NCBI GenBank assembly: GCA_030142905.1
Contig: JASJOG010000010.1
Location: 3,979,576-4,043,575 of the forward strand
Direction: 5' to 3'
Length of the DNA stretch: 64,000 nt
Source: Heliopora coerulea
Lineage: Eukaryota; Cnidaria; Anthozoa; Scleralcyonacea; Helioporidae
Shown piece by piece: positions 13,810 through 60,456 of this stretch. The notes below the pieces were generated by a model. The model made no database searches and was not told where the DNA came from. It was given only the letters and a program-made list of their open reading frames with translations. How positions within the stretch are numbered: position 1 is the first letter of the stretch; each line of letters begins with the position of its first letter. The position numbers and the translations under genes were made by a program.

Positions 13810-14133
13810 TCAAGGCGGACTACGAAGATGAATTAAATCTGATGAACTTTGTTTATTGTTAGAGACGAGAATGAATAAAAGACGACGAAGAAGTTGGTCT
13901 GCATCTCCGCCTCTCAATTTCATTCGCTCTTTCGCTAAGGTAAATCTGTGCCGCAGATTGTTCCATTTTTGACGGCACAAAGCTTCGTTAACACTAAGGT
14001 TCTCCACAATCTCCCACCTAGGACTGATTGTCTTCTGAAAATCTTTGTAGTCACGCCGAGATGAATCGTATAGATGCGGATATTTTCCTACTTTTTCTGC
14101 CGAGCTTTCTTCCAAACTCTCCATTGAAGACAA
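13810..14133 (-). CDS. MADF-domain (Adf-1-type Myb/SANT-like) open frame, probably transposon-derived
   Basis: This is a 107-residue frame with an ATG start. Residues about 15-70 fit the MADF DNA-binding fold: YPHLYDSSRRDYKDF at helix 1, PRWEIVENLSVNEALCRQKW in the middle, and NNLRHRFTLAKERMK at helix 3. MADF proteins are DNA-binding factors, and related short frames accompany PIF/Harbinger transposons. The frame is flanked by a 12-bp direct repeat GCACGATAATCT (13790-13801 and 14138-14149), which suggests the unit was inserted as a piece. Upstream of the ATG is a three-copy TTGTTACCACT repeat. A BESS or transposase partner is not visible, so it may be a broken or orphan copy. Confidence 0.55.
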   Translation of the reverse strand: MSSMESLEESSAEKVGKYPHLYDSSRRDYKDFQKTISPRWEIVENLSVNEALCRQKWNNLRHRFTLAKERMKLRGGDADQLLRRLLFILVSNNKQSSSDLIHLRSPP

Positions 14134-14641
14134 CGTGGCACGATAATCTGTTTGTTACCACTTTGTTACCACTTTGTTACCACTTCCCCTAGCATATATA
14201 ATAAACCAATCATATCACACGACAATTCAACACAGTGTCTGCTAAGTTTCAAAATTTGCGAGGTACGCGACAGCGACAACGACAATGAACACACACCACA
14301 CGCACTTCCGTTTTGGCTGCAATTACATCAGTTTAACAGAGCAACACTTTACGCAACACACGTCGCTCGAAGAATAAATTGGACTTATCACTCTATGCAT
14401 AGTAATCAATTGAATAAAGGATTTAACGCATAGGTTGGATCAACGAATATTGTCACCAGACGACCATAGTCAACCTGTTCTCCTCTGTATTCCTTCACAT
14501 AATTACGATTCATCGACCTTAAGTCTAACTTCTAACTACTTACCGTTTTAAGGGAAAGTTTAGTGAAACACGAAATCAGTAAAATGAGGTTAAAAAATTT
14601 TACTCCTTCCCTTTTCCATCATTTACAAATATTATAGTTCA

Positions 14642-30953: not shown

Positions 30954-31096
30954 TGGACAGAAGTGAAAATTGAAAAGTGTTCGACAACTGTGTGCACGGA
31001 ACTTCACGTTTGTTTGCCGAAGTTTCCGACATCATGACGATCACCCCTCCTCATTTGAAATCAAAACTTTGATACCTTACCCCTGACTCACTTAAG
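30954..31096. promoter_or_regulatory. Bidirectional promoter region between FARSA and RNF170
   Basis: Only 143 bp separate the two divergent start codons, so both 5' UTRs and core promoters must overlap here. No TATA box is visible, which fits housekeeping promoters. Function is inferred from spacing alone. Confidence 0.6.
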
Positions 31097-34000
31097 ATGG
31101 CGGATGGCTGGGAAATAAAACGTCAAGAAGGAACGTACGTGGAAGGTGTGGGGAACGAGGTTTTGCTAGGTCTTGGCGCATCTCTTGCAATTTTTATACC
31201 TATAGTTATTACTTTTCTTGTAAAAAGGACTACTCACGTTCAAATACATCCAGCAGAAGCCGAACACGTTCGGGCAACTAGAGAAAGACTCGGAGTGGGA
31301 GAAAATGTCAATAATTCTAATCAGGATTTCAACAGGACGAACCGATCGACTCCTCCAAGGAACATTAATGCTGGGGAGCCATGTCCTATCTGCTTAGGAC
31401 AGCCGAGACTTTTGGTTGTCACCAACTGTGGACATGGGTTTTGTGGTGAGAATCAACACAGTATATTACATAAATATGAAAGAAACAAACGTATGTTGTT
31501 ATGCACCTGTTAATGTTAAACCCGAGTTGGGGAGGCCTTGAAGGTGTGGGGGAGTTGATTTTTCTAAAGAATTTTGTGTCAAAATCCCAAACCTGTGACG
31601 TAAAATATGGGTCAATTCAGATCAAATCCTCCTCACCTGTGGGAAAAAAAAGATTCCCAAAGTTTTTAGTCAAATAATCAGTAAACAAATTCCTCTGGGT
31701 TTTACCCTAGTTTTCAATAAGTTTTGTTATATATGTACTAAAAGTGACTAGTAGCTGAGATGATTATAAACATGTGTTTTACAGATTGAAGTCATAAATG
31801 TGGTTTTATTCAAATCAAAATTTCTTCTGAACTTTGAAGGGTAGTATTGGTGATAGAATTACTGCAATTATGGTGATTGGTAGAAATCCTTTGAGTAAGT
31901 TTTACTCATTATCAGGAATGCAAAACATAACAAAAACTTTGTTGAAATGTTGATTTTTAATAAAAGCTGCACCTTTTCAAGTTCATTTGATTCCATTGTT
32001 TTACATTTTTCTGCTCCAGTTGGACCTAATTTGGCAAGTACAATTTATAACTAGGTGCTAATCTGTCAATAGAATCATTTACACTGGGAGATTGACATTG
32101 GGAGCATATTGGCAAGCACGAATGCTATAACACTCACCTCATTATAGTTGCTTTAGTGTAATGTACAAAATTGTAACTATAGTAATTTGGGGTTTTAGGC
32201 ATCTGTGTCACAACGTACTGGCGTACACGTTCATCTTTTCGAGCAATGAACTGCCCAGTTTGCCGGCAGCAGGTATGGGACCACAAATTAATGTTATATT
32301 TGAGAATCAGTTGTATTTATTATGAGAATTGTTGGCTACCATCTGGATTTGAGATGGGATAGCTTTGTTTTTAACTGAATTTTAGACTTTCTTTCTCAGT
32401 GTAAAATATATGTAATTTTATCTGGTATCCATCCATGATATTAGCAAAAAAATTACCAATACAAAGTATCTATATCAGGATTGTTGTGTATAGACTTTTT
32501 TATAATAATCCCTGTGTAAACTCAACTGAGTGACAATTAAATCAGGTATTGTCAAAAATTACTGATATAAGTAGACTTTCACAGATAGGCTTTAGTGCAT
32601 ATGATGTTGTATTGACTCATACTCTTAGGTCTTTGATATTTCATTTTTGCTACCACTTTGATCATACAGCTGCAATTTGCAGTTACTGAACATTGACTTA
32701 TCAGAGATTTATTGATTTTAATGTATTGGAGACAATTTGTGATTGATACCAATATAGATACCTTCCTCAAAATGCTTCTAAGAGTGTCAAATTTGTATAC
32801 CCTAAATGCTAACCAGGAATTCAGTGGAAATCTTAATCTAAGTATGAAAATCAAATCCCAACTCAATTTATGAACAAGAAGAGTCATCCTTTTTTTCAAA
32901 AACGATAAGACAAATCACAGCATCTTTAAAAGAGATATTTACTGACATTTTGTTGCCAACACTCAACATTATCAAAATGAAATATAATACAATTAAAATG
33001 ATTTTTATGATGTACATGTACCTGTAAGATATATTTTCATGAGTAAATAATTAATAGCCAATGAGAAGGAGAAAAATTGAGAAAGGTTAGAACAAGGAGA
33101 CTAGAACAGAACTAACATTTTCATTAAGAAAGGGCTTAAATTTTTTGAAGTGAGAAGACTTTCCCTAATATGCGACTCAAGTATTGAGTTGCTTGAAGAC
33201 AAGATAGAAATGTCATTAGAAGAGACAGGATGGCAAGCTTCAGTAGAGTAACTTACAATAAAATGCTTGAGGGAGATAGGTGAGTTTCTTGCATAGGCAG
33301 TGGAATGGGGTTAAGGGGAGCTGGTTTCCTCCTATAATAACACTGGACCCATGAGGAATGCACGTTACTGGACCTCTCGGGAGAACAGCTCAGGTAGGTG
33401 ATAGGGTTATCCAGTATAAATAAAGACACTTATCCACTTATAGCCCCCCCCAACATTTCTGACCACAGGGCTTGGCCCCTTAATAGTTTCAGGTCTGTAA
33501 TAAGAACATACTTTTTACCTTGTTTAACTGATGGTGTATGAATATTTTGTCCCAACTCATGTTTTTATTCATGAAATCTAAGTACTGAAATGCTTCTACA
33601 AATATTTGTTTATTTAAACTATTTGAAATTTTGATGGGAGGTCAGCAGTTTACACCACCCTTGTTTTACTTTTTCATAACAATTAGCTTCAGTATCCAAC
33701 ATCAGGCATCTTTCTTCACCAATGGTTACTTGGCCATAAAAGGTGACAGTCTGATATGTTTATTATTATTATTATAATTTATCTTTATACAGGTTTGCTT
33801 GTTCAGCTATAAATACAAGCTGTTATCCTTCAAGGACCTGTGTCTAAGATATAAAATATGTAAACATAAGTTAAAATGGAAGTTAAATGGAAATTAAGGT
33901 AAAATATGAAAGTTCAACAAGCTAAAAAATATCATTTAATATTTTTCTTTTAAATAAAATAAAACTGTTTTCATCACGAATCTCCTTCGGTAGTTTATTA

Positions 34001-35775
34001 AAAACTAATATTCCTTGAAAGTGGAAACTTCTTCCAGATGCAGTCTTCACATTTGGAATTTTGAGAAGGGAATTATTCTTCTGAGTATCATGATTGTAAT
34101 TAATTTTGCAGAAATGATTGTCGAAATAATGTGGACCAAGTGTATTCATACATTTAAATACTTCGATTAACGCCTTTTTTTGAAACGTTACACCAATCAC
34201 ATCAGAGGATGGTGGATTTTTCCTGTCAATAACCAGCATTGCTTTTCTACGAACTGCGTCTAATTTATCAATACGGGTTGTTGGTAGTCCTAAATATAAC
34301 GTGCAGCAGTAGGTCATTATCGGTATTGCCTGCTCTTGCAAAGGTTTGTGAAAGAGTAGCTGACGACCGGGTAAAAGATTACGGTGAAAACCATCAAACT
34401 TTAAAAGAACCTCTACAATTTGCTTACACCAAGCATTGCTCGACCGTGACGGCATTAATAAAAGTGATTGATTCCTAGAAATTAGCTATTGATGATAGGA
34501 AATGCACTGTCGCTGTATTTCTTGACCTCCGAAAAGCCTTCGATATCATCGACCACTCGATGCTTTTAAAGAAATTACGTGATTACGATTTCGATGAAAA
34601 TGCAATCAAGTGGTTTGTTTCCTACCTCACAGATAGACAGCAATATGTCGTTTATCAAAACGCTCAATCTGACCTTGAATATGTAACTAATGGTGTTCCT
34701 CAAGGATCGGTATTGGGCCCGACGCTATTCTGCCTATATTATAACACGATTGTTCACAGCTGCACGGAATGTGGCCCTTTTTTATATGCGGATGATACTG
34801 AAGTGCACCATTCGAATAAAGACTTGGCATTAGCACAGGAGAAGATTAATATAGATTTGATGAACGTCGATCAATGGTTACTACAAAACAGAATGATAGT
34901 CAATGTCAAGAAAACTAAGTCGCTTCTAATTGGGTCAAAATTCGCCATAAAGAAGGCTGGAAAGCTTGAAGTTCGACTTAGTGATGAGACTGTAGAACAA
35001 GTTGATTCATTCGATTGTCTGGGTCTTCGTTTTAGTAACTGTTTGTTGTGGGAATCACATATTACAATAATATGTCGAAGGACACATTCAAGACTTAGTC
35101 TATTAAATAGGATCTCTGCATTTCTTCCCAAGCCTGTTTTATGTAGGATCTACAAACAAACTATTTTACCAATCTTAGATTATTGTTCAATTGTGTGGCA
35201 TGACTGTGGCTCCACGTTAACAAGACAAGTTGAACTGGTTCAAAATCGAGCGATGAGAATTATTTTGAAAGAAGGAAAGAAAAAGTATACCCAGGAAATG
35301 CGCAATGATTTAAATCTTTTAATTTTGTTTAATAGGAGAAGATTTTTTAGATATGTACTAATTTTTAAAATTTTAAATAATTTAAATTGTCCTGAACAAT
35401 TATTAGACGTTTTTAAATTACGTAGTAGTGTAAGAAACAGAGAACTCCGAGATGAAACGTTATTGGATTTACCAAAAGTTAAAACTAAGATGGGACAAAC
35501 AATGTTTGCGTACGCCGGTGCAAAGGACTGGAATTCTCTGCCTACATATATCAGAAAAATAACTTTTATTACTAGTTTTAAACGTTCTATTTATATGTAT
35601 CTTTTAGACAGTGATAAAGATTTTCATATTTGTAGTTTATAGATTAATTTAGATTGTTTTTTTTTTCAATTTTTTTCAATTTTGTTACATAGTTAATTTA
35701 TGTTTTATTAGCACTGTTCTCCCGTTAATACCAGCTTTTATGCTGATGGGATTTTTTTAACAGTATAAATAAAGA

Positions 35776-35825
<50 letters not shown>

Positions 35826-38087
35826 TTATTGGTTCAATTATAGTTCTATAGATCGTCATTGCACTAGATGGTGAGATGTTGGCACGAATCCGCTTTAATA
35901 GTTTTTTGTAGGTCTTTTGGATATGCTTTTGCAAGGTTAAATGTTTGTCTAAATGTTCAGAGATACACGTGTGCAAATAATGGCACATTTGCCTAAAATA
36001 CAATGCTGCGCAGAGGTGACACGTATACTTACATACCAGATGCGATTTCAAAGGTTTAGGAGTCCGGTGTTTAAATGAGAAAGGCTTGGATGTGCGTAAA
36101 CTAAGTTTAAAAATGATGTGAAAGTTACTGAATCTGGTGATAACCGGAAGAAAAGAATTTAAGAAGTTTGGTGAGGATTTCCAACGAATGAGCACGAGTA
36201 AACGGAAGACAGAAATAAATTGTTTGGAAAAGTAGTGTAACTCATAACAGAAGAAAAAAAATTCATTCAGGAAAACACCAAGACAACGATCGGAAAAAAG
36301 CAATTAGATATCCATTACTGGCAATAGCTTGTTTTAGGTTTAATGACTACAGAATGGAAAACTTGATAGGATGAAGTTATTTTGAAATATTGGTCAAATA
36401 AAATGTGTAAAAGACCGCTTTAAATGACGAAGGAATGAAACTATCGGAATAGGTGAATAACTCTCTTAAGGTAGATTTGCGATCTGTAGAAGTGGAAAAA
36501 CCATTACAGCGGTCAACGGAGATATCTTGGAAAGGAAAGGCTTTGTTGACCACTAATTCAGAAGTAAATTTGATATTATTCTTGTGACCTACTTATCGAA
36601 CACGGTAACACAGACTTTTGTAATATATATGGCGACAGTAAGCATATGACGAAATATAGTTTCAGATAAAGGAATCCGCTGAATCTTGGTTGTTTTAAAT
36701 ATTGAAATCAGTCAGTAGATTGCAAATTACGGCAAGTGTATACAGTAGATTGTAAATTAGGACAAGTGAAAAAGATAAACTTGATGTATACTAGCCGCCA
36801 CGGGTCAAATACTGTACATCTACTGATTTTTGTCCAGATTACCCATGATTCACTTATAGGACCAAAGTTCGTGAATGAAAGATCCTAACTTTCATTCGTA
36901 AACAAATGAAAGGGTTAGTCAGGTAAACCAGTTACAAAAATCGACGAAAACAGTAGCAAACCACAAACTAATACAAATACTTAATATGTTTTAAGCTTTA
37001 ACTTATTAGAGTTGCTTAATGACCGTCGAGGGCTTCCTTTATCCCTAATTTGCGTCGTACAGGTAGTGACGATGTATGTTTTGAAAAGATCTGTTCAGCA
37101 GTATTGGCAAAAGTAAAGTGAAAATGTTGAAAGGTTAACGTTTGACATCCTTGCACTTTAATCAGTTACTGTTAGATAGTAGGATGATTACATAGTATTA
37201 AATTCAGGTGAGATAAGTCGATAGGATCGTAATTATATATCAGAACTGAAATGGTCTGTCGATGGGACTAATTACTGTAGTATGATGAGGTCGAATCATA
37301 AGTTTTAACAGCAGTGTATTCCATCTTTGAAGACTTCCATGTTATTTATGAGTTTCACTGAACACGATACTTCGGCAGAAGCGACATCTGTACGAAATTC
37401 AGTTCATCAGTACAACAGACGATTTTCGTCCGAGCCACGAACGGTAAGTTTAAAGTTGCTGGTGTTTTTATTTCTAACCAAATTTATAAAATCTTTAAAA
37501 CTTTGTTCCGTTTTTTGTTGTGCATTGTGCGGTTCAGTTCCGTTATTTTACTTTACTTTATGTTACTTTTTTTTATTCTACTTTACTATATTTTATTTTA
37601 TCTTTTATTTCATTCTACTTTAGTTTATTTTACTTCAATCTATTTCACTTCCTATTATTTTACTTACTTTATTTCGTTTTGATATCTTGTGTTGTGTATG
37701 GTTTATTGTGGTGTGGTCTGTTGTATTATGTTGTTGTGTTGTGCAGTTTAGCGTTGAGTTGTGTTATTTTTATTCCTATTTTACCCTTTTAAAAACATTT
37801 TACAGGTTATGGAATATATAAGAGACTTTCCAACTTTACTTCAGCAACTGTTTTACGAATTTTTCTCAGTTGGTGGATTGGTTGTAGTCTTGCGTTTTCG
37901 AATTGTTCTTTGCCTCGTGGCTGCTATGTTGTACCTTGTCTCTCCCATTGACATTTTGTCTGAAGCGGCATTTGGACTACTTGGATTTATAGATGACATA
38001 GTGATTATATTACTGCTGCTTTTCTATATTACCGAGATATACAGAAACGTTGTGACTGATAGGGCTACGGCAGCCCCGAGAGAATAG
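31097..38087 (+). CDS. RNF170: RNF170-like ER-membrane RING E3 ubiquitin ligase (complete)
   Basis: In vertebrates RNF170 is an ER E3 ligase that works with the erlin complex to degrade activated IP3 receptors. Four exons join in phase: 31097-31445, 32199-32272, 37333-37443 and 37806-38087, giving 271 residues (human about 258). An N-terminal membrane segment lies at about residues 25-43 (LGLGASLAIFIPIVITFLV). The C3HC4 RING starts with CPICLGQPRLLVVTNCGHGF at the end of exon 1. Exon 2 completes it with ICVTTYW and CPVCRQQ. Exon 3 has the family block VHQYNRRFSSEPRT. Exon 4 has RDFPTLLQQLFYEFFSVGG, then two hydrophobic segments around SPIDIL and GFIDDIVIILLLLFYI, which fit the C-terminal DUF1232-type membrane region. 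Intron 2 holds two LINE copies. The start ATG is preceded by the promoter shared with FARSA. Confidence 0.93.
33762..34322 (-). mobile_element. LINE 3' end (CR1/L2-type), minus orientation
   Basis: The minus-strand frame from 34322 to 33922 reads IPIMTYCCTLYLGL, LDAVRRKAMLVI and FVFNKLP-type C-terminal motifs (here GILVFNKLPKEIRDE). This is the region after the reverse transcriptase core of CR1/L2-type LINEs. It ends in a short TAA-type tail (seen as TTATTATTATTATAAT at about 33762). It is 5'-truncated at the junction with the plus-strand LINE. It lies in RNF170 intron 2. Confidence 0.75.
34319..35830 (+). mobile_element. LINE retrotransposon (CR1/L2-type) with nearly intact reverse transcriptase
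   Basis: One frame runs from 34319 to 35642 with a single internal TAG at 34476-34478. It has LPALAKVCERV, motif A FLDLRKAFDIIDH, motif B NGVPQGSVLGP, motif C FLYADDTEV, then LDYCSIVWHDCG and WNSLPTYIRK at the C-terminal end. These are the RT and post-RT blocks of CR1/L2-type non-LTR elements. The endonuclease and ORF1 parts are missing by 5' truncation. The element ends in a TTA trinucleotide run at about 35778-35830, the microsatellite tail of this group. With only one stop it looks fairly young. It lies in RNF170 intron 2 in the sense orientation. Confidence 0.88.
35836..36303 (-). pseudogene. Decayed Penelope-like GIY-YIG fragment joined to a LINE RT tail fragment
   Basis: The minus frame first shows VCKYTCHLCAALYFRQM with HTCISEHL, which fits a degraded GIY-YIG segment (YKF.C..C...Y.....H...R..EHL). 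It then shows YKKLLKRIRANISPSSAMTI followed by YRTIIEPI, which fits the post-RT region of a LINE. The two parts belong to different element types, so this is a composite relic. It abuts the TTA tail of the plus-strand LINE. Confidence 0.5.
37540..37765. repeat. Degenerate pentamer tract (TTTAC then TTGTG types)
   Basis: TTTAC/TTTAT units at 37548-37680 pass into TTGTG/TGTTG units at 37685-37765, just upstream of the acceptor for RNF170 exon 4 at 37805. The tract may serve as an extended pyrimidine-rich region for that acceptor. Confidence 0.65.
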
Positions 38088-43751: not shown

Positions 43752-45163
43752 TTATTTTCCGCAACAATTTTGACCTTGTCCCATACATGGCGGTGGCTGA
43801 CAAGGTGGTGGAGGAGCTGGTGGTTCCACATGATGATGCACAATGGTATGAATGACTTTGTTCGTCGCTCGTGGAGGAGTTGGTGGGGCAGGAATTGGCG
43901 GAGGAGGTGGGATTGGTGCCCAAGCGTGGTCTTCATCGTTCATTGTTTGGTAGTTGTGAACAGGAGGCGGTGGTGGGGGAGCTGGCTTAGGGGGTGGGGG
44001 TGGTTTCTGATGATGGTGAATAATATGTTGAATTGTATTGATTTTTTGAGCTGGGGGAACTGGAGGAAGTGGTGGTGGGGTTGCTGAAGGGGGAGGAGGT
44101 TTCCATTCGTGAGTTTCGTCGTGTTGAGTGTTGTAGATATGTGTAGGGGGACATGGTGGCTCTGGTGAAGGAGGTAACATTACGCCATGGGGCATCGGAG
44201 GAGGTGGAATTGGTGCTGGTCCACCCTTGTAGGTTGTGTCTTGTGTACCGGCTCCACCACCATATGCCGCAGCTCCACCACCGGCACCACAGCACGAGGA
44301 CTGGCAGCTCGGGGCGCAGGATGATGGACATGATCCAGGACATCCCACTGATTTTCTGGCTGGTTTACATTCTTTTAAAGCTGAAAAAGGTACAAAAGCA
44401 AATTGGGATTAAAATAAAGCAAAGACACATGGTATGTTTATGTTTATCTAACCCTTTTACCTCCAACAGCGCAAGTAGGTGCGCTTTAATTTTGCAAAAT
44501 TTGATTTGTGAACAGATTTTAATAGATTTTCAAAAAGATTTTGAATACAATGAATAATTTATAATTTCTTTTCTAAAATTCAGGGTGAAAGGGTTGAACG
44601 GGATTTAGTATTTAACTTTTTGTTTCCCTAAGGAAAAACCTTGTAGCGTGAAATTACGTGTGGATCGCGGGCTGCCTAGCCCCTTCCCTGGCTGAGGCCC
44701 TGCATGCTATGCGAATTCTACTGAATACCTTTTCTTCAAGGGTCAAAGAAGAGATGCTCACGTGGTATGAAATGAGTTAAGATTGAGTCAACGTAAAACT
44801 GGTCAATATAGAAATCCAACTCGGAATAATTCGTGATAAAATTAAAAGAATTTTCAGCAATTTCCCTTGGCAATGCTCTCTTGTTTAAAAATGCGAAACA
44901 AAGCTACGTTAAATCTAGCATCTCCTGCATTAAAATGGTAAAAAAATAAGCAAGGCATTACAATCATCGATATCAAGATATCTACTTCAAGAGGTTAGCA
45001 TGTCCTCTCATACTTTCCTTGATCAGTTCACTCTCACTGTTTTTCTTTGGCACATTCCGCACTTACATTTCTTTTTATGATGCTTGGATTTTATTGCTTT
45101 TCCAAAGATGCTACTGGTTAACAGCAATACACCTAGACACATCAGTAGTCTTCTAAAAGCCAT
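43752..45163 (-). CDS. Secreted minicollagen-type CRD protein with polyproline/histidine body (copy A)
   Basis: The probable role is a structural protein of the nematocyst capsule wall, inferred from the CRD. Two exons, 45163-45067 and 44380-43752, join at phase 1 to give 241 residues. Residues 1-21 form a signal peptide (MAFRRLL then a hydrophobic core ending SSIFG). A Lys/His-rich segment follows (KSKHHKKKSLKECKPARKS), like the basic propeptide of minicollagens. The CRD at residues 46-63 is CPGSCPSSCAPSCQSSCC, the exact six-Cys spacing of minicollagen CRDs. After a Gly/Ala stretch come long Pro runs alternating with acidic/His blocks: YNTQHDETHEW, IQHIIHHHQKP, MNDEDHAWAP and HTIVHHHVEP. The end is CQPPPCMGQGQNCCGK. 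No Gly-X-Y collagen repeat exists. An acceptor-like TTCTAG six bases upstream of the ATG suggests a 5' UTR intron. Head-to-head with copy B. Confidence 0.82.
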
Positions 45164-45170
45164 ATTTAAC

Positions 45171-46660
45171 TAGAACGACTAAAGCAAGAAAACATTCATT
45201 GAGGAACGGTAGCAAAAATGGTAAGAATATAAACGTTAGATTTTTGGGTAGAATCAAATAAGTGCCATCTTTGCTTTCGTATAATATTACTTTTAATTTA
45301 AACACACTGCACTTCGAGTGCATTATCGGAGATCTCATTTACTAGTATGACATATGTAATGGATCTATAGACCAGGAGGCGTGAAACCGAAATGGGTTAT
45401 TATTTCTGTATTTTATCAGGGACACGCAACGAACATACCTTCTAGACGAAGTCTTTCCTTGTTAGAAAAACGATCTAAATTTTCAATGGACAACCAGATT
45501 CGAGCGGATGGTTAAGCGAACAGTCGGTCGTCTCTAATAATTTATTAATAGAAATTACTATGATTTCGATCTCTAATCTAAAAACAAACTGAAGAAAGCT
45601 GGTGCCCTTTTTACAAAGTAAACGTCCACCAGTTAATAAACAATTAAATATTCATCAGTTATTTAAGATTTCTGTTTACTGTTTTTAAGGTTCTTGATTA
45701 AGGTAGATTTTGATAAAATATTATTGATGAAAGTTTGTCCAATGAATGGAATTTACTGGAATCTGGAATTATATGTATTTCTCTTCCGCAAACAATTCTG
45801 GCGATATGAATATGAAGGCACCGTCCATCTGTAATTTTTTTTTTGGGTTAAAATACCATCTAGTGAAGACACGGCGGTAATATTTGATTCACTAGTCATT
45901 AAGCCGAGAATTAAATGTCTTGCAATTTGGAAATATCAATGTTCCAAAGCTATGATAATCAAGTCAGTGCACCACTGGATGACATTAGAACAGTATGCTA
46001 ACCCATTGTGGCCTTTTTGCTACGGTTGAATGAGGTAATCAATGAACCATGACGAGTTTTTCTATTCAGGTTAGCAATGAAAGTTTAATTGAAGCACGTC
46101 ATGCAGTAAGAACACCCGTTTTTGGAAGAAAGTTGTTTCCGTGCTCTATCTCTTTATTTCATCCTAGTATCCGAAGTTTTTTTTCCAAGGCATTGGCTGG
46201 TAAGAGGATCAGTTTTGGCCTCAACTTAGAAGAACTATTGGTTATTAGGTTTGTACAAGTTATTAGGTTTATTATTTTTTTATAGGCTGATATAACCTTA
46301 GTTTTCACTCTGAAAAATTTGTGTTTTGTAATGATGGAGATACCAGTCGGGTGTAATTTTCCTTCAATATTTGTGTTTCTAAATCGTGAATGAGGGAGAC
46401 ATTTGTTGTAGAAAATAATAATTGACGAAGGTTGTTTTAAGTCGCAGATTTGCTTTTCAGTACTCTTGTGTTAAATATGAAAGGTCAGTTAAAACGAGAC
46501 CAAATTGGACAAGACGGTATTTAAGCTAGCCTTGCACGTATAAATCAAAGAGAAGTTAATATAATTTCAGGAACCCAAATCTACTTCGCAAAAAGGGGAA
46601 AGATTTTAAAGTTTTCTAAATTAGTCTAAACGAATTGTGGTGTCACGTCTGGTGTTATTT
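45171..46660. promoter_or_regulatory. Shared intergenic region between divergent CRD genes A and B
   Basis: About 1.5 kb separates the two start codons and must hold 5' UTR exons and promoters for both genes. AT-rich, with no other gene visible. The divergent layout would allow co-expression, for example in developing stinging cells; that is inference. Confidence 0.4.
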
Positions 46661-46669
46661 TAGGTTGAT

Positions 46670-49600
46670 ATGGCGTTCAGGATCAGCATTGTGTGTCTTC
46701 TAATAGCACTGTTTGTTTTCCAAGCTCTCGGAAAGTCTGTGAAACACCCAAAGCATGAAAAAGGTAAGTTTAGTTTTTTTGTTTTTTAAACCCAAAATCC
46801 ATCCTTGTTCTGCACCAGGTTATACTTCCCTACAACTGTCATGCTTCACATACGAGAAAGAATGATTGAGGTAATGGTTAATTCGGATTAAATTATTTTC
46901 AAACTCGGTTGTTCCTGATAAATTTCTCCAGAGGCGTAAGAACCAACTAATCATTGGGGGGGGGGGAGCTGGAAGGCGCGAGGAACCTCTAGGGGGTCCG
47001 AGGCATGCTCCCCCTGAGAATTTTGATTTTCTAAGGCTCTGAAACCCTATTTCCTGCATTATGAGGGCTGTTTAAAAAAAAAATCATAAGGAGTAACACA
47101 CCAAAAATTTATTGTAATATAATAAACTAGTTTATCTCATCATTGTACATGGCAACAGGAAGTGATTTTCAATTGCTGTTTCACTTTCCCCAACAAAATC
47201 ATTTTTGAGTGTGTATATTAGCCCATGATGGTGAACGGTCAAAGTTAATGCCATACAATAGTCAGCAACCCTCACCTGGTTTCCCAAAATGCCTACCATA
47301 CCCAAATTAATTAATAAGATTAAAGCTTATAGTCATTAGTTAACACAACGATTAAGACTAGTTATGTACAAGGTGTCATAGAATAGGATAAGGTGTCTAA
47401 GGCTTTGTTATAACTAAGTCACTATTATTATAACACAGTGTTTTCTTTACTTTAACCTAGTTTATAAATTAAGTTTAATATAGGCACATATTAAACGTTT
47501 TAGTGTCCTATACCACTGCATCATGCTATAATTATATTTGTCAAAAGTAGCAAGACTAATATACAACCTAAAACAGACTCACTAATTTTAACCCTAATAA
47601 TTACAAATATTCACTTCACAGCTGACTGTTTTGGTCCAACCTTAATCAGGTACATTATGCAAAACAGCGACTACCGTCACTATTGGGGGGCGGCCCCCAC
47701 TTCTATTATCGGGGGGCCTGTCCCCCCCACAGTCCCCCTGCTTCTTACACCACTTTTCTCAGAACGTCCTGCTTCAGCTACACTAAGAACATGTTAAAAA
47801 CAGATGTTTGAATGAATCGAAGAAATTATGAGTCGGATGTAATCAGTGACATAACGTAACTTTTTTCATATATGTTAGGTACTTTCGGACGCTGATATTG
47901 GTATTAAAGCAATTTTATCATGCATAATGAAGTAGGCGTGCCGAAACCTGCCAATTTGGTCAATTTTAGTTTCTTAACTTTACTTCAGCTTACAAAGCAG
48001 TATGAAGCAAAACTGTGGGAAGTCGGAAGACATGTAAAAAAATTAGATATTTCTAAATTTCTTTGTATTACCCAAGTGAGTGTCGGAAATGACTGAAAAA
48101 CATCCAAGTGGTAACGAGTAGTCTGACTGGAGTAAAAACAGTCCATATTTAAAGCTACTGGACGAGGATGCCTAACAACCAAAATTGAAAAAGATTCACG
48201 GAAGATTCACTTCCTCAAATCCTGGAGTTTTTAATGTTTTGGTTTTTAGCCAATATGAACTCTACTTTTCTTAAATCACGTCCTTATGTACCACTGAACC
48301 AATTGCTGGATATTTATGAAAAGAACGTAGAATAAAACATGGGCTGAACCCACTAAGTTAACCGAAGTTAAATTAAGTTAAATTAAGTTAGGTTAAGTCA
48401 AGTTAACCTAAGTTAAGTTAAGCTAAGCTAAGCTAAGTTAAGTTAAGCTAAGTTAAGTTAAGCTAAGATAAGTTAAGCTAAGTTAAGTTAAGCTAAGTTA
48501 AGTTAAGCTAAGTTAAGTTAAGCTAAGTTAAGTTAAGCTAAGTTAAGCTAGGTTAAGTTAAATCAGATTAAGTTAAGTTAGGTTAAGTTAAGTTAGGTTG
48601 GTTAGATCAGGTTAAGTTAAGTTAAGTGGAACTAGATTAGGTTAAGTTAGGCTTGGTTAGGTTAGGTAAAACTAAGAACTTCCTCAGAGGCTGTAGTCAA
48701 GCAATCGAAATAATGGAGAAAGGGAGGGAAAGGAAGCAAAGTTTTGTCTCAGTATGGCGACATTTAGAGGTAATGTTTGAGTAAACTGATTGATATCTTA
48801 TGTAAGACTACAATTTTACTTGACGGATGTGCAAAATAGAAGAATGCAAAGGCTTTGAAAGTTTTGGAAGTATTCCAAACATAGAATGTTAATTGAGGCC
48901 ATTCTATGCAATCCAGGAATTGAAGATAAGAAATCTGCCAGAGCTACATAACAATGACGTAAAGTTTGTTATTAAATGCGGTCATGCGCCAAAAGTTCGT
49001 ATACAGTTATTTGGTCGATATATCACGGCGTGGGATAACATAGCATTACATACAATAGCATGGAATCGCATGACATAGCATGGTATGGCATGGTATGGTA
49101 TGGTATGGCATAGCATGGTATAGCATAGAAATGCATATAGCAAAGCACAGCAGAGGGCAACACAGGAAAGCATAGCATAAGATATCATAGAGTATTATAT
49201 CAAAGAATAGTTTATTATCGCATAGACCAGAATGGCATAGCATCGCATGAGATTGAATAACGTGGCATACAATGAAATAGCACCGGGTAGCAAGAGAGGA
49301 GCCAGGCGGAAATTGCCTGTTGTTCCTCGTTTTGGAATGATGGGCACTGATTTTTATCCTTAAAGCACAGGTTAGCATGTGGTAGCATGGCATATAACAG
49401 CATGACAAAGTAACGCATGGCATGGCCATAAACATAGCAAAGCATAGGATAATATAGCGTAGCACAGTGTAATATAAAACACCGGTCATAGCAAGGAATC
49501 GTATAAGATAGAATGGCATAGCATGCTGTTGTATAAAATAGCATGGTATGGTATGGTGTTGTATGGTATAGATATTTTAGTATAGTGTTGGACGTCATCA

Positions 49601-50624
49601 TTGTTAATTAAGTGATCTACTAGCCTGTCCTATGTTATAGTTTATGCTTGAATACAGTTTAACTGACAACATTTTAAATCACGGCTACAACAAAAAACCC
49701 CATTATATCTGTATGCATTATAATACCTTGTGATTATAAGTTCACAGAAATCAGATTGTTTTAAGCTGGATTAAATGCACGAATTTACCATTTATCTATG
49801 AAATTCATTAGGGGGTGGTGCCAGAGGGGGGTTGAGGGGGCTACAGCCCGCTGTCGAGGAACCTTTGTTTCCCTGTTGGGGAAAAATTAACAATCCATCG
49901 GGGAATTTTTACTGATGAAAACATATATTGTAAAAATTATGAGCACCTGTTATTGATTTAGTCAAGAAAGATAATAGACTCTTCTTTTCATGTCAAATCT
50001 AAAAGTAAACTCTTTCTTTTCAATTGTTGCGATTATTATTGTGAAAAATAACATGATGTTTTCGACCTTCAAATAAGAAAATTATAAAGGAAGCGTGATC
50101 CTGGCTCCTCTGGTTTAGTCTCCCTGTTGGACGTTAGCCCCTGAGTCGAGGAATTCCTGGTGACACCCCTGTTCTATCGTAGTGAACGTTGAGCAAACAA
50201 CTCGTCACAAAAAAATTTATGTCATTATTATCATCTAACAATGTTTATGCTTCTAGCTACGAAGAAGCAATATGGATGTGGCGGTGGATGTCCGCAACAG
50301 TGCGCTCCATCATGTCAGCAAAGTTGTTGTGGTCAGCAAGGTGCCCAGCAAGGTCAGATGATCACACATTTGACAACAGTTCACCATCATCACGTACACC
50401 ATATGGCCCCTGCCCCACCAGCTCCACCTCCAGCTCCCGTGCCACCTCCACCACCACCCCAGACGTTCCACACCCAACAACACGTGTTTGAATGTGATAC
50501 ACCTCCATGCCCAGCTCCCCCACCCCCGATGCCAGCTGCAGGTAGTTGTGCCACCCCACCTTGTGGAGGTGGGATGGCTATGCCCGCACAACAGCCATGT
50601 GGAGCTCCACCATGCGGAAAATAA
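46670..50624 (+). CDS. Secreted minicollagen-type CRD protein with polyproline/histidine body (copy B)
   Basis: Exons 46670-46763 and 50257-50624 join at phase 1 to give 153 residues. The signal peptide starts MAFR, like copy A, and ends near residue 21 (FQALG). A short basic segment KSVKHPKHEKATKKQ follows. The CRD at residues 39-56 is CGGGCPQQCAPSCQQSCC, again C-x3-C-x3-C-x3-C-x3-C-C. The body has THLTTVHHHHVHHM, a run of Pro/Ala and Pro6, then TFHTQQHVFECDTPPC. The C-terminal part is Cys/Pro/Gly-rich and ends CGAPPCGK, close to the CCGK end of copy A. There is no collagen repeat. TTATTTTAG just before the ATG suggests a 5' UTR intron. The 3.5-kb coding intron contains a G-rich element and two pentamer satellites. 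A likely polyadenylation signal is at 51006. A capsule-wall role is inferred from the CRD. Confidence 0.82.
46929..47755. mobile_element. Degenerate G-rich hAT-like element in intron of CRD gene B
   Basis: The left end CAGAGGCGTAAGAA and the right end read inward, AGTGGTGTAAGAAGCAGGGG, are related, each followed by long G runs. The flanks (ATTTCTC and TTTTCTC) agree only partly, so the insertion is old. The block GGGTCCGAGGCATGCTCCCC with ATTTTGATTTTCTAAGGCTC is shared with the elements at 7428 and 25895. Confidence 0.5.
48355..48670. repeat. Pentamer satellite (AAGTT/AAGCT)n
   Basis: A long run of TAAGTTAAGC-type units, with drift to TTAGG-containing units at the right. It lies inside the intron of CRD gene B. 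Confidence 0.9.
49030..49580. repeat. Pentamer-based satellite (CATAG/CATGG)n, interrupted
   Basis: Units of CATAG, CATGG and TATGG repeat from about 49030 to 49255 and again from 49370 to 49580, with a unique insert between. The Cys/Met/His/Tyr-rich minus-strand frames over it are repeat artefacts. It lies inside the intron of CRD gene B. Confidence 0.85.
49812..50172. mobile_element. G-rich MITE-like element near acceptor of CRD gene B
   Basis: The left end AGGGGGTGGTGCCAGAGG and the right end read inward, CAGGGGTGTCACCAGG, are related inverted ends. The inner sequence GTCGAGGAACCTTTGTTTCC matches the fragment at about 61795-61862. I found no convincing target duplication. It ends 85 bp before the second coding exon. 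Confidence 0.5.
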
Positions 50625-52698: not shown

Positions 52699-52927
<229 letters not shown>

Positions 52928-58376: not shown

Positions 58377-60456
58377 ATGAGGATTTATCTCGTGGTTTCC
58401 ATAGCCATATTTTTGGCTTTTACATCAGAAGCAGTCAAGTCGAAAAAACTTAAGAAATTTGTTTCGAGTCATCGAGCCACCAAGGGTACGTTTTACCATA
58501 CGGCTTTATCTTTGGTCATAATCTTGTGCTTTGCAGACCAGCAGACATTTGTCGTTGTCCAGCCCACATCTACAGCTGAGGCGCACATTGCGTGATTGAA
58601 CGCAACATGGTCATCATGACTGAATGGTTTATGACAAGGTTTGATAATGGGCGCAGCGATGAAAGCCACACAGGATCGGGCCGAGAGATAATCGGGCCTG
58701 CTCATTGCGATGTAGGCCATTCAAGAGCCATGACTGTGCACGGCTGGTAGTCAGGCCTACCAAGAGCCAAAGTTAACAGTTAAAGGGGCAAAAAATATTA
58801 TTGACTTGCTGTATTAGCGTCAAAAACTGTACGGTGTGTTGCCATGGGGTGCCGAAGCTGCCGAAAAACAAAGAAACAAAGAAACAGTCAGGCAGACAAA
58901 CAAACAAACAAACAAATAAATAAACAAATAAACAAATAAACAAATAAACAAATAAAATTATTATATGGGTAACCAAATGACGGCATTCTGGTTGGACGAG
59001 AGGAATAAAATTATTTTATGAATTTCACTGTAGGACTTGTAATAAACAAGAAATCATGTGGCGTGGCTGCCTCGGACGCAACACATATGTGGAAATTGCA
59101 TCTTACCACACTATTTTACAAGAGTCTTGGTAGCGCAATGGCTGCAGTTTGGTCAGCCAAATACTTCACGAATAAAATCGTGAAGTATTTGGCTAAACAA
59201 ATTAAAAAAAACTAAGTTCTCATATGGCAGATTTAAATTGTTTTACAGTACTTTATTCTCCTATCAATATGTCATAAAATGATGAGGTGAATGATATTTC
59301 AAAAATAGCCTAAAAATATAACTCTGCTCTCGTTTAAAAGCACACCACATAAGTAAAAGATTTTGAATTCTTGGATGACCATTGGACGTTCGCCAAGCTC
59401 AAACCTCAAAATCAATATCTCCAAAAGCTCGCATGCAAAACAGTAGTCTCTTTCTGAATGCTATTTCATCAATTGTGGTTAAATTGGGTGCAAACATAGC
59501 AAACAAGTTTATTATTTGGATGACTAACATTCACTCTGGATGTTGGCGTCATTCTTGTAAAGTGAGGAGAATCGACATACAGAACAGACAATTTCTCAGG
59601 TGCTATCAAAACAACAAATGTTCAAAAATTGCAATGACTCACAGCCATATGAATGTGTGTACTTACATGCACGTATGTTTATATGTATTATTGAACATAT
59701 ACATAGACGTAGCTACATTCAGTGAAAAATTGTATGGGTGTATGCTCCAACTTTTTGACTTACTCAATTATTGTGTTGACTTCCACAGGATCAAAGAAAT
59801 GTGTCACTAACCCATGTGGTGGGGGTATGCCACCATATTGGCCACCGCCCTGTCCCACCCCTCCTTGTCCACCACCACCTCCTCCCCCGCCTTTTACATT
59901 GAATGAAGAGAAACATGTCAGTCATCACCATGTTCACCCACAAATGGGTCAGATGGCCCAACCACCTCCCCTACCACCACCGCCCGAATACGCTCAACAT
60001 ACCGTTCACCATCATGTATACCATCCAGCACCACCTGCAGCTCAACTTCCACAGACCCCTCCTCAACCACCTGTGGTGCTCAGGGATGAAAAGCATGTTA
60101 CCCATCACCACACTCATCCTGCTCCGCCAATGGGACCACCACCACCTCCACCATGTCCATCTCCTTGTATGGAGCAGGAAATTCATCACGAACACGTGTA
60201 TCATCGCAACAAAGGAAGCTTCGCCCAGGGACAACAGGTTACTGGTCCGTTAGCAGCAACGGGTGGAGTATCATTTGGTGGAATGGGAGGAGGTATGGGA
60301 GGAGGTATGGGAGCTGGATGCCCGCCACCATGCAAGAAATCGAAATTGGGAAAAAGAACAAAAAAGTCGAAACATTCTCCAAAAAAGGCTTCAAAGAAAA
60401 GTACAAAAAAGGCGTCCAAGAAAATTACAAAAAAGGATAAGAAGAGAAAAAATTAG
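58377..60456 (+). CDS. Secreted Pro/His-rich protein with Lys-rich tail, relative of the CRD proteins (copy C)
   Basis: Exons 58377-58485 and 59789-60456 join at phase 1 to give 258 residues. A signal peptide (about residues 1-19, MRIYLVVSIAIFLAFTSEA) is followed by a basic segment VKSKKLKKFVSSHRATKGSK. A complete six-Cys CRD is absent; instead there are CVTNPCGGG and CPTPPC, later CPSPC and CPPPC. The body alternates Pro runs with acidic/His modules: LNEEKHVSHHHVHP, QHTVHHHVYHPAPP, LRDEKHVTHHHTHPAPP and EIHHEHVYHR. A GGMGGGMGGGMG stretch follows. The last 45 or so residues are Lys/Ser/Ala-rich (KKASKKSTKKASKKITKK), reminiscent of linker-histone tails but in a secreted context. Acceptor TTTTACAG before GAGCTG, 17 bases upstream of the ATG, implies a 5' UTR intron. 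The intron position and phase match copies A and B. Confidence 0.8.
58895..58962. repeat. (AAAC/AAAT)n microsatellite
   Basis: CAAACAAACAAACAAATAAAT-type runs pass into repeated AAATAAAC units, inside the intron of copy C. The opposite-strand Val/Cys/Leu/Phe frame is an artefact. Confidence 0.85.
59128..59194 (+). repeat. A-box-like head fused to a perfect 17-bp-arm palindrome
   Basis: TTGGTAGCGCAATGGCTGCAG resembles a tRNA A-box region but no B box follows. Instead AGCCAAATACTTCACGA (59155-59171) is exactly complementary to 59178-59194 across the loop ATAAAA. It lies in the intron of copy C. Confidence 0.6.

Follow-up and report, generated by a model that had tools for sequence, protein, structure and literature searches.

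Collagen-free proteins with minicollagen-type cysteine-rich domains (CRDs) have been described from cnidarian stinging capsules. In Hydra CPP-1, as described, a rigid polyproline domain is flanked by CRDs and the protein is disulfide-linked in the capsule wall (PMC6910907); the description of Cnidoin, also of the Hydra capsule wall, gives it a silk-like non-collagen core flanked by minicollagen CRDs (PMC4321713); and the nematocyst-specific shell protein NSP4 is described with a Cys- and Pro-rich start and a CRD reported in Hydra (PMC6134521). In Nematostella, four minicollagen-like proteins with incomplete features, NvNcol-like-1 to -4, have been described, two of them expressed in spirocytes (PMC12549020). 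Because of these precedents, collagen-free CRD proteins are a kind already known. Here we analyse a 64,000-nucleotide stretch of the anthozoan Heliopora coerulea (assembly GCA_030142905.1, contig JASJOG010000010.1, positions 3,979,576 to 4,043,575; hereafter the window) that holds three clustered Pro/His-rich genes, A, B and C. Judged from sequence, and with a probability of about 0.68, we read their products as secreted structural proteins of stinging-capsule (nematocyst or spirocyst) type, forming a Pro/His branch of CPP-1-like non-collagen CRD proteins.

The CRDs of genes A and B

An earlier note on this DNA had ascribed to two adjacent genes, A and B, a signal peptide, a basic propeptide-like segment, exactly one C-x3-C-x3-C-x3-C-x3-CC domain and a body of Pro runs alternating with His blocks, all without a collagen triple helix. 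Each of these elements was borne out, with the qualification that the propeptide-like segments lack KR, that the signal peptides of A, B and C were assigned by eye, and that a third Pro/His gene, C, had been missed. The exact six-cysteine motif occurs only twice across all six frames of the window, once in each of the two genes (Table 1); 30 first-order Markov simulations of the window did not produce it at all. When the residues of each protein were shuffled from residue 21 on, it arose in 0 of 200,000 trials for A and in 3 of 200,000 for B. The single CRD of each protein is N-terminal, near the beginning of exon 2.

A published rule, as given in PMC4863159, recognizes the N-CRD type, described there as monovalent, by Pro11, a residue other than Val or Ile at position 4 and a residue other than Pro at position 14. 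Counting the first Cys as position 1, a numbering inferred from the G4V;K14P mutant (PMC4863159) and the NOWA sequence, both CRDs are N-CRD type by this sequence rule. We then searched 177,635 distinct PDB sequences with each CRD and with a profile of seven CRDs. Up to an E-value of 10, every match was NOWA or a minicollagen (7 of 7 for the CRD of A, 6 of 6 for that of B and 4 of 4 for the profile), with best E-values of 0.18, 0.18 and 0.0061, respectively. The closest solved CRD structures are those of NOWA (2nx7 and 2hm3).

No sense Gly-X-Y run of at least six triplets was found in the three genes or in the rest of the window, read in six frames; runs of that length are confined to two poly-Gly stretches, which are the antisense reading of the proline runs in B and C. 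Without a sense run, a collagen exon hidden within the introns is ruled out, and open frames together with conserved relatives rule out that A and B are minicollagen pseudogenes. None of the three genes has a Pfam match above the curated cut-off, and a C-type lectin domain was not found in them; GRP (in A), FeoB_associated (in B, 20.2 bits against a cut-off of 27) and YxzE (in B) all fell short of theirs. The exact cysteine spacing, PDB matches confined to NOWA and minicollagens, and a propeptide intron like that of Ncol-5 (below) support, at the level of sequence, the presence of minicollagen-type CRDs without collagen in A and B.

Gene structure of the cluster

Genes A and B stand head to head with 1507 bp between their ATGs, and all three genes have two exons (Table 1). 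The introns of A and B (686 and 3493 bp) run from GT to AG, are in phase 1 and lie inside the propeptide-like segment, and a phase-1 intron in this region is common to A, B and C. The myxozoan minicollagen Ncol-5, which has no KR, is described with a single intron that lies in its propeptide region (PMC7981951). Within the first 50 residues, gene A has the dibasic pairs KK, RK and RR, the last of them lying in the signal-peptide-like start, and gene B has KK. From their sequences A and B are paralogs, because exon 1 (score 61 against a maximum of 42) and the CRD region (0 shuffles reaching the score) each outscore all 2000 shuffles. According to the available descriptions, minicollagen genes are commonly clustered (PMC7981951), and those of Nematostella sit on separate scaffolds (PMC3145756).

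Table 1. Positions of genes A, B and C and of their parts within the window
Feature	Position	Strand	Description
Gene A	exon 1 45163..45067, exon 2 44380..43752	-	241 aa, two exons
Gene A exon 1	45067..45163	-	signal-peptide-like start and beginning of basic propeptide-like segment MAFRRLLMCLGVLLLTSSIFGKAIKSKHHKKK; phase-1 donor GTAAGTG
Gene A exon 2	43752..44380	-	CRD, Gly-rich linker, polyproline/His body, C-terminal cysteines, TAA stop
Gene A CRD	44289..44342	-	CPGSCPSSCAPSCQSSCC; Ser4, Pro11, Gln14; N-CRD type by rule
Gene A two-fold repeat	43830..44141	-	[H-x-Y-x-T-x-x-D-E-x-H-x-W] - polyproline - [HHH box] - polyproline, twice
Gene A C-terminal cysteine tail	43755..43802	-	CQPPPCMGQGQNCCGK; C-x4-C plus CC
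Gene B	exon 1 46670..46763, exon 2 50257..50624	+	153 aa, two exons
Gene B exon 1	46670..46763	+	signal-peptide-like start, basic propeptide-like segment MAFRISIVCLLIALFVFQALGKSVKHPKHEK; phase-1 donor GTAAGTTT
Gene B exon 2	50257..50624	+	CRD, His box, polyproline, C-terminal C-x4-C module, TAA stop
Gene B CRD	50277..50330	+	CGGGCPQQCAPSCQQSCC; Gly4, Pro11, Gln14; N-CRD type by rule
Gene B His box	50364..50429	+	THLTTVHHHHVHHMAPAPPAPP
Gene B C-terminal module	50493..50621	+	three C-x4-C pairs
Gene C	exon 1 58377..58485, exon 2 59789..60456	+	258 aa, two exons
Gene C exon 1	58377..58485	+	signal-peptide-like start, Lys-rich propeptide-like segment; phase-1 donor GTACGTTTT
Gene C exon 2	59789..60456	+	two C-x4-C pairs, three HHH boxes in polyproline, Gly stretch, Lys-rich tail, TAG stop

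An acceptor-like TTTTAG/TTTTACAG directly precedes the ATG at 46670 and that at 58377, which suggests introns in the 5' untranslated regions of B and C; the spacing of the A and B promoters can thus not be read from the distance between the ATGs. A scan of the gap between A and B with bacterial consensus sequences returned 3 promoter-like sites (6.6 expected) and 3 terminator-like sites (1.0 expected), from which we draw no meaning. The intron of gene B contains an array of 55 copies of the TAAGT pentamer (48354..48627), and 110 copies of the TA dinucleotide lie between B and C (52703..52922).

Pro/His bodies and C-terminal modules

Proline makes up 30.5% (A) and 24.6% (B) of the estimated mature chains and forms runs of 4–6 residues in both. 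In gene A, the His-containing boxes and polyproline segments form a two-fold internal repeat that scores 162, where the highest of 3000 shuffles scores 103; once prolines are removed the score is 71 against a maximum of 57. Shuffles of one body against another break up the Pro runs and are lenient in that respect; the control without prolines covers only this internal repeat. Both boxes of the repeat are present in the relative P0001, as are all four cysteines of the C-terminal tail. Gene B has a single long His box, in which LTTVHHHHVHHM is the same in all 5 sequences aligned, and in addition TFHTQQHVFEC. Pro and His are encoded by mixed codons, with 30 CCA, 19 CCT, 7 CCC and 5 CCG among the prolines of gene A.

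A canonical C-terminal CRD was not found in A or B, and cysteine modules occupy its place. The number of C-x4-C pairs is at chance level in A (reached by 7884 of 20,000 shuffles) and only moderately above chance in B and C (534 and 289 of 20,000). AlphaFold2, given exon 2 of B and four relatives, returned a mean predicted local distance difference test (pLDDT) score of 49.6; residues 51–70, the polyproline segment, alone reached 78–79, with no helix or strand assigned. The predicted segment fits an extended rod.

Relatives and conservation

Relatives were sought among about 5.8 billion proteins, and for gene A scoring was confined to the 7989 candidates with the most shared words. One relative emerged among these, P0001 (75% identity over 82% of the query); gene B has four, P0002 to P0005, whose identities range from 65 to 84% and whose alignments cover 48 to 100% of the query. 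In P0002, a 905-base contig carries both exons of B in one reading frame. The record does not state the molecule type; because the intron here spans 3493 bp, P0002 is most simply a spliced transcript. No relative was found that spans the splice junction of A.

Blocks of low complexity are conserved between the two genes and their relatives. B and P0002 share 15/20 residues in the signal region, 11/15 in the propeptide, 20/20 in the CRD, 16/18 in the His block, 16/17 in polyproline, 11/11 in the HTQQ block and 34/43 in the tail. For A and P0001, the three successive parts of the body share 39/44, 23/33 and 49/55 residues and the tail 22/26. The tail of P0005 diverges from the family near the C-terminal cysteines, as though out of frame. 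A bacterial or viral origin was considered and rejected: exon 2 of B has no relative in prokaryote genome contigs (171 pattern stretches rejected) and no plasmid match was found for B, and exon 2 of A has no relative in viral contigs (8 rejected).

A third gene without a CRD

Gene C was first seen as a Pro/His frame in the list of open reading frames of the window, with a signal-peptide-like exon upstream. It combines three HHH boxes with two C-x4-C pairs and a Lys-rich tail. Compared with that of A, its body scores 203, where 1000 shuffles give at most 142; the likeness to the body of B is weaker (124, with a shuffle maximum of 119). Its N-terminal CVTNPCGGGMPPYWPPPCPTPPC resembles the C-terminal CATPPCGGGMAMPAQQPCGAPPC of gene B, a score that 2 of 5000 shuffles reach. 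Two short tandem arrays in exon 2 (60283..60313 and 60380..60436) overlap the Gly stretch and the Lys tail.

Other features of the window

Elsewhere in the window, a RING finger frame (31073..31510, + strand; PF00097, 22.8 bits) and a DUF1232 frame (37758..38084, + strand; PF06803, 38.1 bits) together look like what we take to be an RNF170-type ubiquitin ligase, a possible synteny anchor. A reverse transcriptase frame (34479..35642, + strand; PF00078, E 5.3e-23) represents a retroelement relic or copy, and a MADF DNA-binding domain frame lies at 14154..13813 on the - strand (PF10545, E 5e-09).

Weighing the explanations

Several observations weigh against the assignment of A, B and C to the stinging capsule. 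The phmmer E-values of the single CRDs are weak, because the domain has only 18 residues. None of the three proteins has a KR dipeptide in its first 50 residues, where only KK, RK and RR occur. The model of B exon 2, with its low mean pLDDT, is uninformative on the CRD, and P0002 is possibly not derived from RNA. Between A and P0001 the CRD shares 14/20 residues, a smaller fraction than in most body segments, and the Gly linker shares 1/19; judged by this alignment, the Pro/His body of A is better kept than its CRD, the CRD cysteines excepted. Finally, gene C has no CRD, its exon 1 is only weakly like those of A and B (50 and 78 of 2000 shuffles, respectively, reach the score), and the protein search found no relative of it (best E 9.1).

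Three other explanations compete with a Pro/His branch of capsule proteins. The products of A and B may be orthologs of CPP-1, relatives of NSP4 or members of the NvNcol-like-1 to -4 set, in which case they are already catalogued and the Pro/His layout is ordinary variation. We regard this as possible without favouring it. CPP-1 also joins polyproline to CRDs (PMC6910907), four Nematostella proteins share incomplete minicollagen features, two of them in spirocytes (PMC12549020), and NSP4 has both a Cys/Pro-rich start and a reported Hydra CRD (PMC6134521); all of these were compared with A and B by their published descriptions. However, in the description of CPP-1 two CRDs flank the polyproline, whereas each of A and B carries a single canonical one, and the C-x3-C-x5-C spacing given for its N-CRD peptide differs from theirs. 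The combination of polyproline, histidine-rich and minicollagen was, moreover, not found in the open-licence literature, supplements excluded. Alternatively, the products could belong to the secreted matrix of some other tissue (the organic matrix of the skeleton, mesoglea, mucus or an adhesive), having borrowed a CRD and using the His boxes to bind metal or mineral. Secreted proteins rich in Pro and His and cross-linked through cysteine are widespread in extracellular materials, which counts for such an origin, as does the lack of a CRD in gene C. Yet the CRD is described in nematocyst proteins (PMC6910907, PMC4321713, PMC4863159), and the PDB matches of both CRDs are exclusively nematocyst proteins, so we consider a matrix protein of another tissue unlikely.

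It is highly improbable that the frames opened by chance in low-complexity DNA and are translated microsatellites, not genes, an explanation that survives best for gene C. The repeats of the locus speak for it: the TAAGT array in the B intron, the TA array and the two short arrays in exon 2 of C. By contrast, exon 2 of both A and B is free of tandem arrays, Pro and His runs are written in mixed codons, identities to the relatives lie between 65 and 84% with 48 to 100% of the query covered, and one relative, P0002, is contiguous across the intron. On the lack of arrays in exon 2 and the mixed codons we reject a microsatellite artefact for A and B.

Proposed mechanism and significance

If A, B and C do encode capsule proteins of this branch, their products would enter the secretory pathway and shed the basic propeptide. 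The polyproline segments would then act as stiff polyproline-II rods in place of the triple helix, and the single N-CRD-type domain of A and B would give each protein one disulfide link into the minicollagen/NOWA network, with further disulfides from the C-terminal C-x4-C/CC modules. We propose this stiff spacer with a clasp because of the CPP-1 precedent and the CRD rule. By the same analogy, the suggestion in the earlier note that A and B are cross-linking partners in the capsule wall is plausible. The least certain steps are two others: the repeated His boxes, with the D/E/W boxes in A, might form metal- or pH-dependent secondary cross-links, with pH-switched pairing of His boxes with acidic boxes or capsule polyanions as an alternative to metal coordination; and gene C, with a Lys tail replacing the CRD, might bind the network or its polyanions non-covalently.

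A bolder version, which we hold to be doubtful, is that the cluster is a dedicated Pro/His cross-linker kit. Here the His boxes (and the D/E/W boxes of A) would provide non-disulfide, metal- or pH-switched links, and gene C would have kept its His boxes and traded the CRD for a polycationic tail. According to PMC3145756, the minicollagens of mature Nematostella capsules resist reduction, unlike those of Hydra, which implies non-disulfide cross-links of unknown nature. Such a kit, if real, would help to explain this resistance. The capsule wall of Hydra is reported to bear a pressure of about 150 bar (PMC4863159), and the wall proteins described in the work cited here are mostly those of Hydra; collagen-free CRD proteins with His boxes would be a concrete candidate for non-disulfide cross-links. 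If our reading is correct, the CRD is a stand-alone disulfide clasp that has been placed on a further type of rod, and proteins of this kind could serve as natural templates for materials with both disulfide and His–metal cross-links.

Comparison with known capsule proteins

A and B resemble minicollagens in their signal peptide, short propeptide, N-terminal CRD and polyproline. Minicollagens, however, have about 12–16 Gly-X-Y repeats, a CRD at both termini and a propeptide ending in KR, and A and B have none of the three. In Nematostella, minicollagens are described as aligning strictly with the cnidocyte lineage (PMC12549020). NOWA joins a C-type lectin domain to multiple CRDs, whereas A and B have at most one CRD each. 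The minicollagen-like proteins of Acropora, described as collagen plus lectin, were set aside as having another layout (PMC2629781). Spinalin, the spine protein of the Hydra nematocyst, is rich in His, as the products of A–C are, but is Gly/His-rich where they are Pro/His-rich. It carries a basic region, with which the basic tail of gene C may be compared.

Among proteins without collagen, the Gly/Gln-rich, elastic core described for Cnidoin differs from the Pro/His core of A and B. NSP4, a secreted capsule shell protein, is like them in its Cys/Pro-rich start and its CRD reported in Hydra, and the NvNcol-like proteins, which are expressed in cnidocytes, are likewise anthozoan and incomplete in their minicollagen features; both comparisons are with published descriptions. 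The word histidine occurs 0 times in the main text of PMC6134521 on NSP4, in contrast to the His boxes of A and B. A Pro/His CRD protein was not found in the available text of PMC9935875, PMC6161364 or PMC4195985, and among the best literature matches in open-licence texts the phrase 'proline- and histidine-rich' did not occur.

The closest likeness is to CPP-1, as described in PMC6910907: a secreted protein with a polyproline rod in place of collagen and a minicollagen-type CRD. CPP-1 has CRDs at both ends, whereas in A and B a single canonical CRD at the N-terminus is paired with a tail of C-x4-C or CC type; its 20-residue N-CRD peptide starts with C-x3-C-x5-C, unlike their CRDs; and the His-box layout has no counterpart in its description. 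The earlier note had suggested that A and B may be a distinct family. As a class, collagen-free CRD proteins were already known from CPP-1 and others; the open-licence literature searched here yielded no conserved His boxes of this sort, no such replacement of the C-terminal CRD and no CRD-less gene like C. Compared by description with these systems, the new elements of the Heliopora locus are a conserved Pro/His layout, a C-terminal CRD replaced by other cysteine modules and a cluster member that has no CRD.

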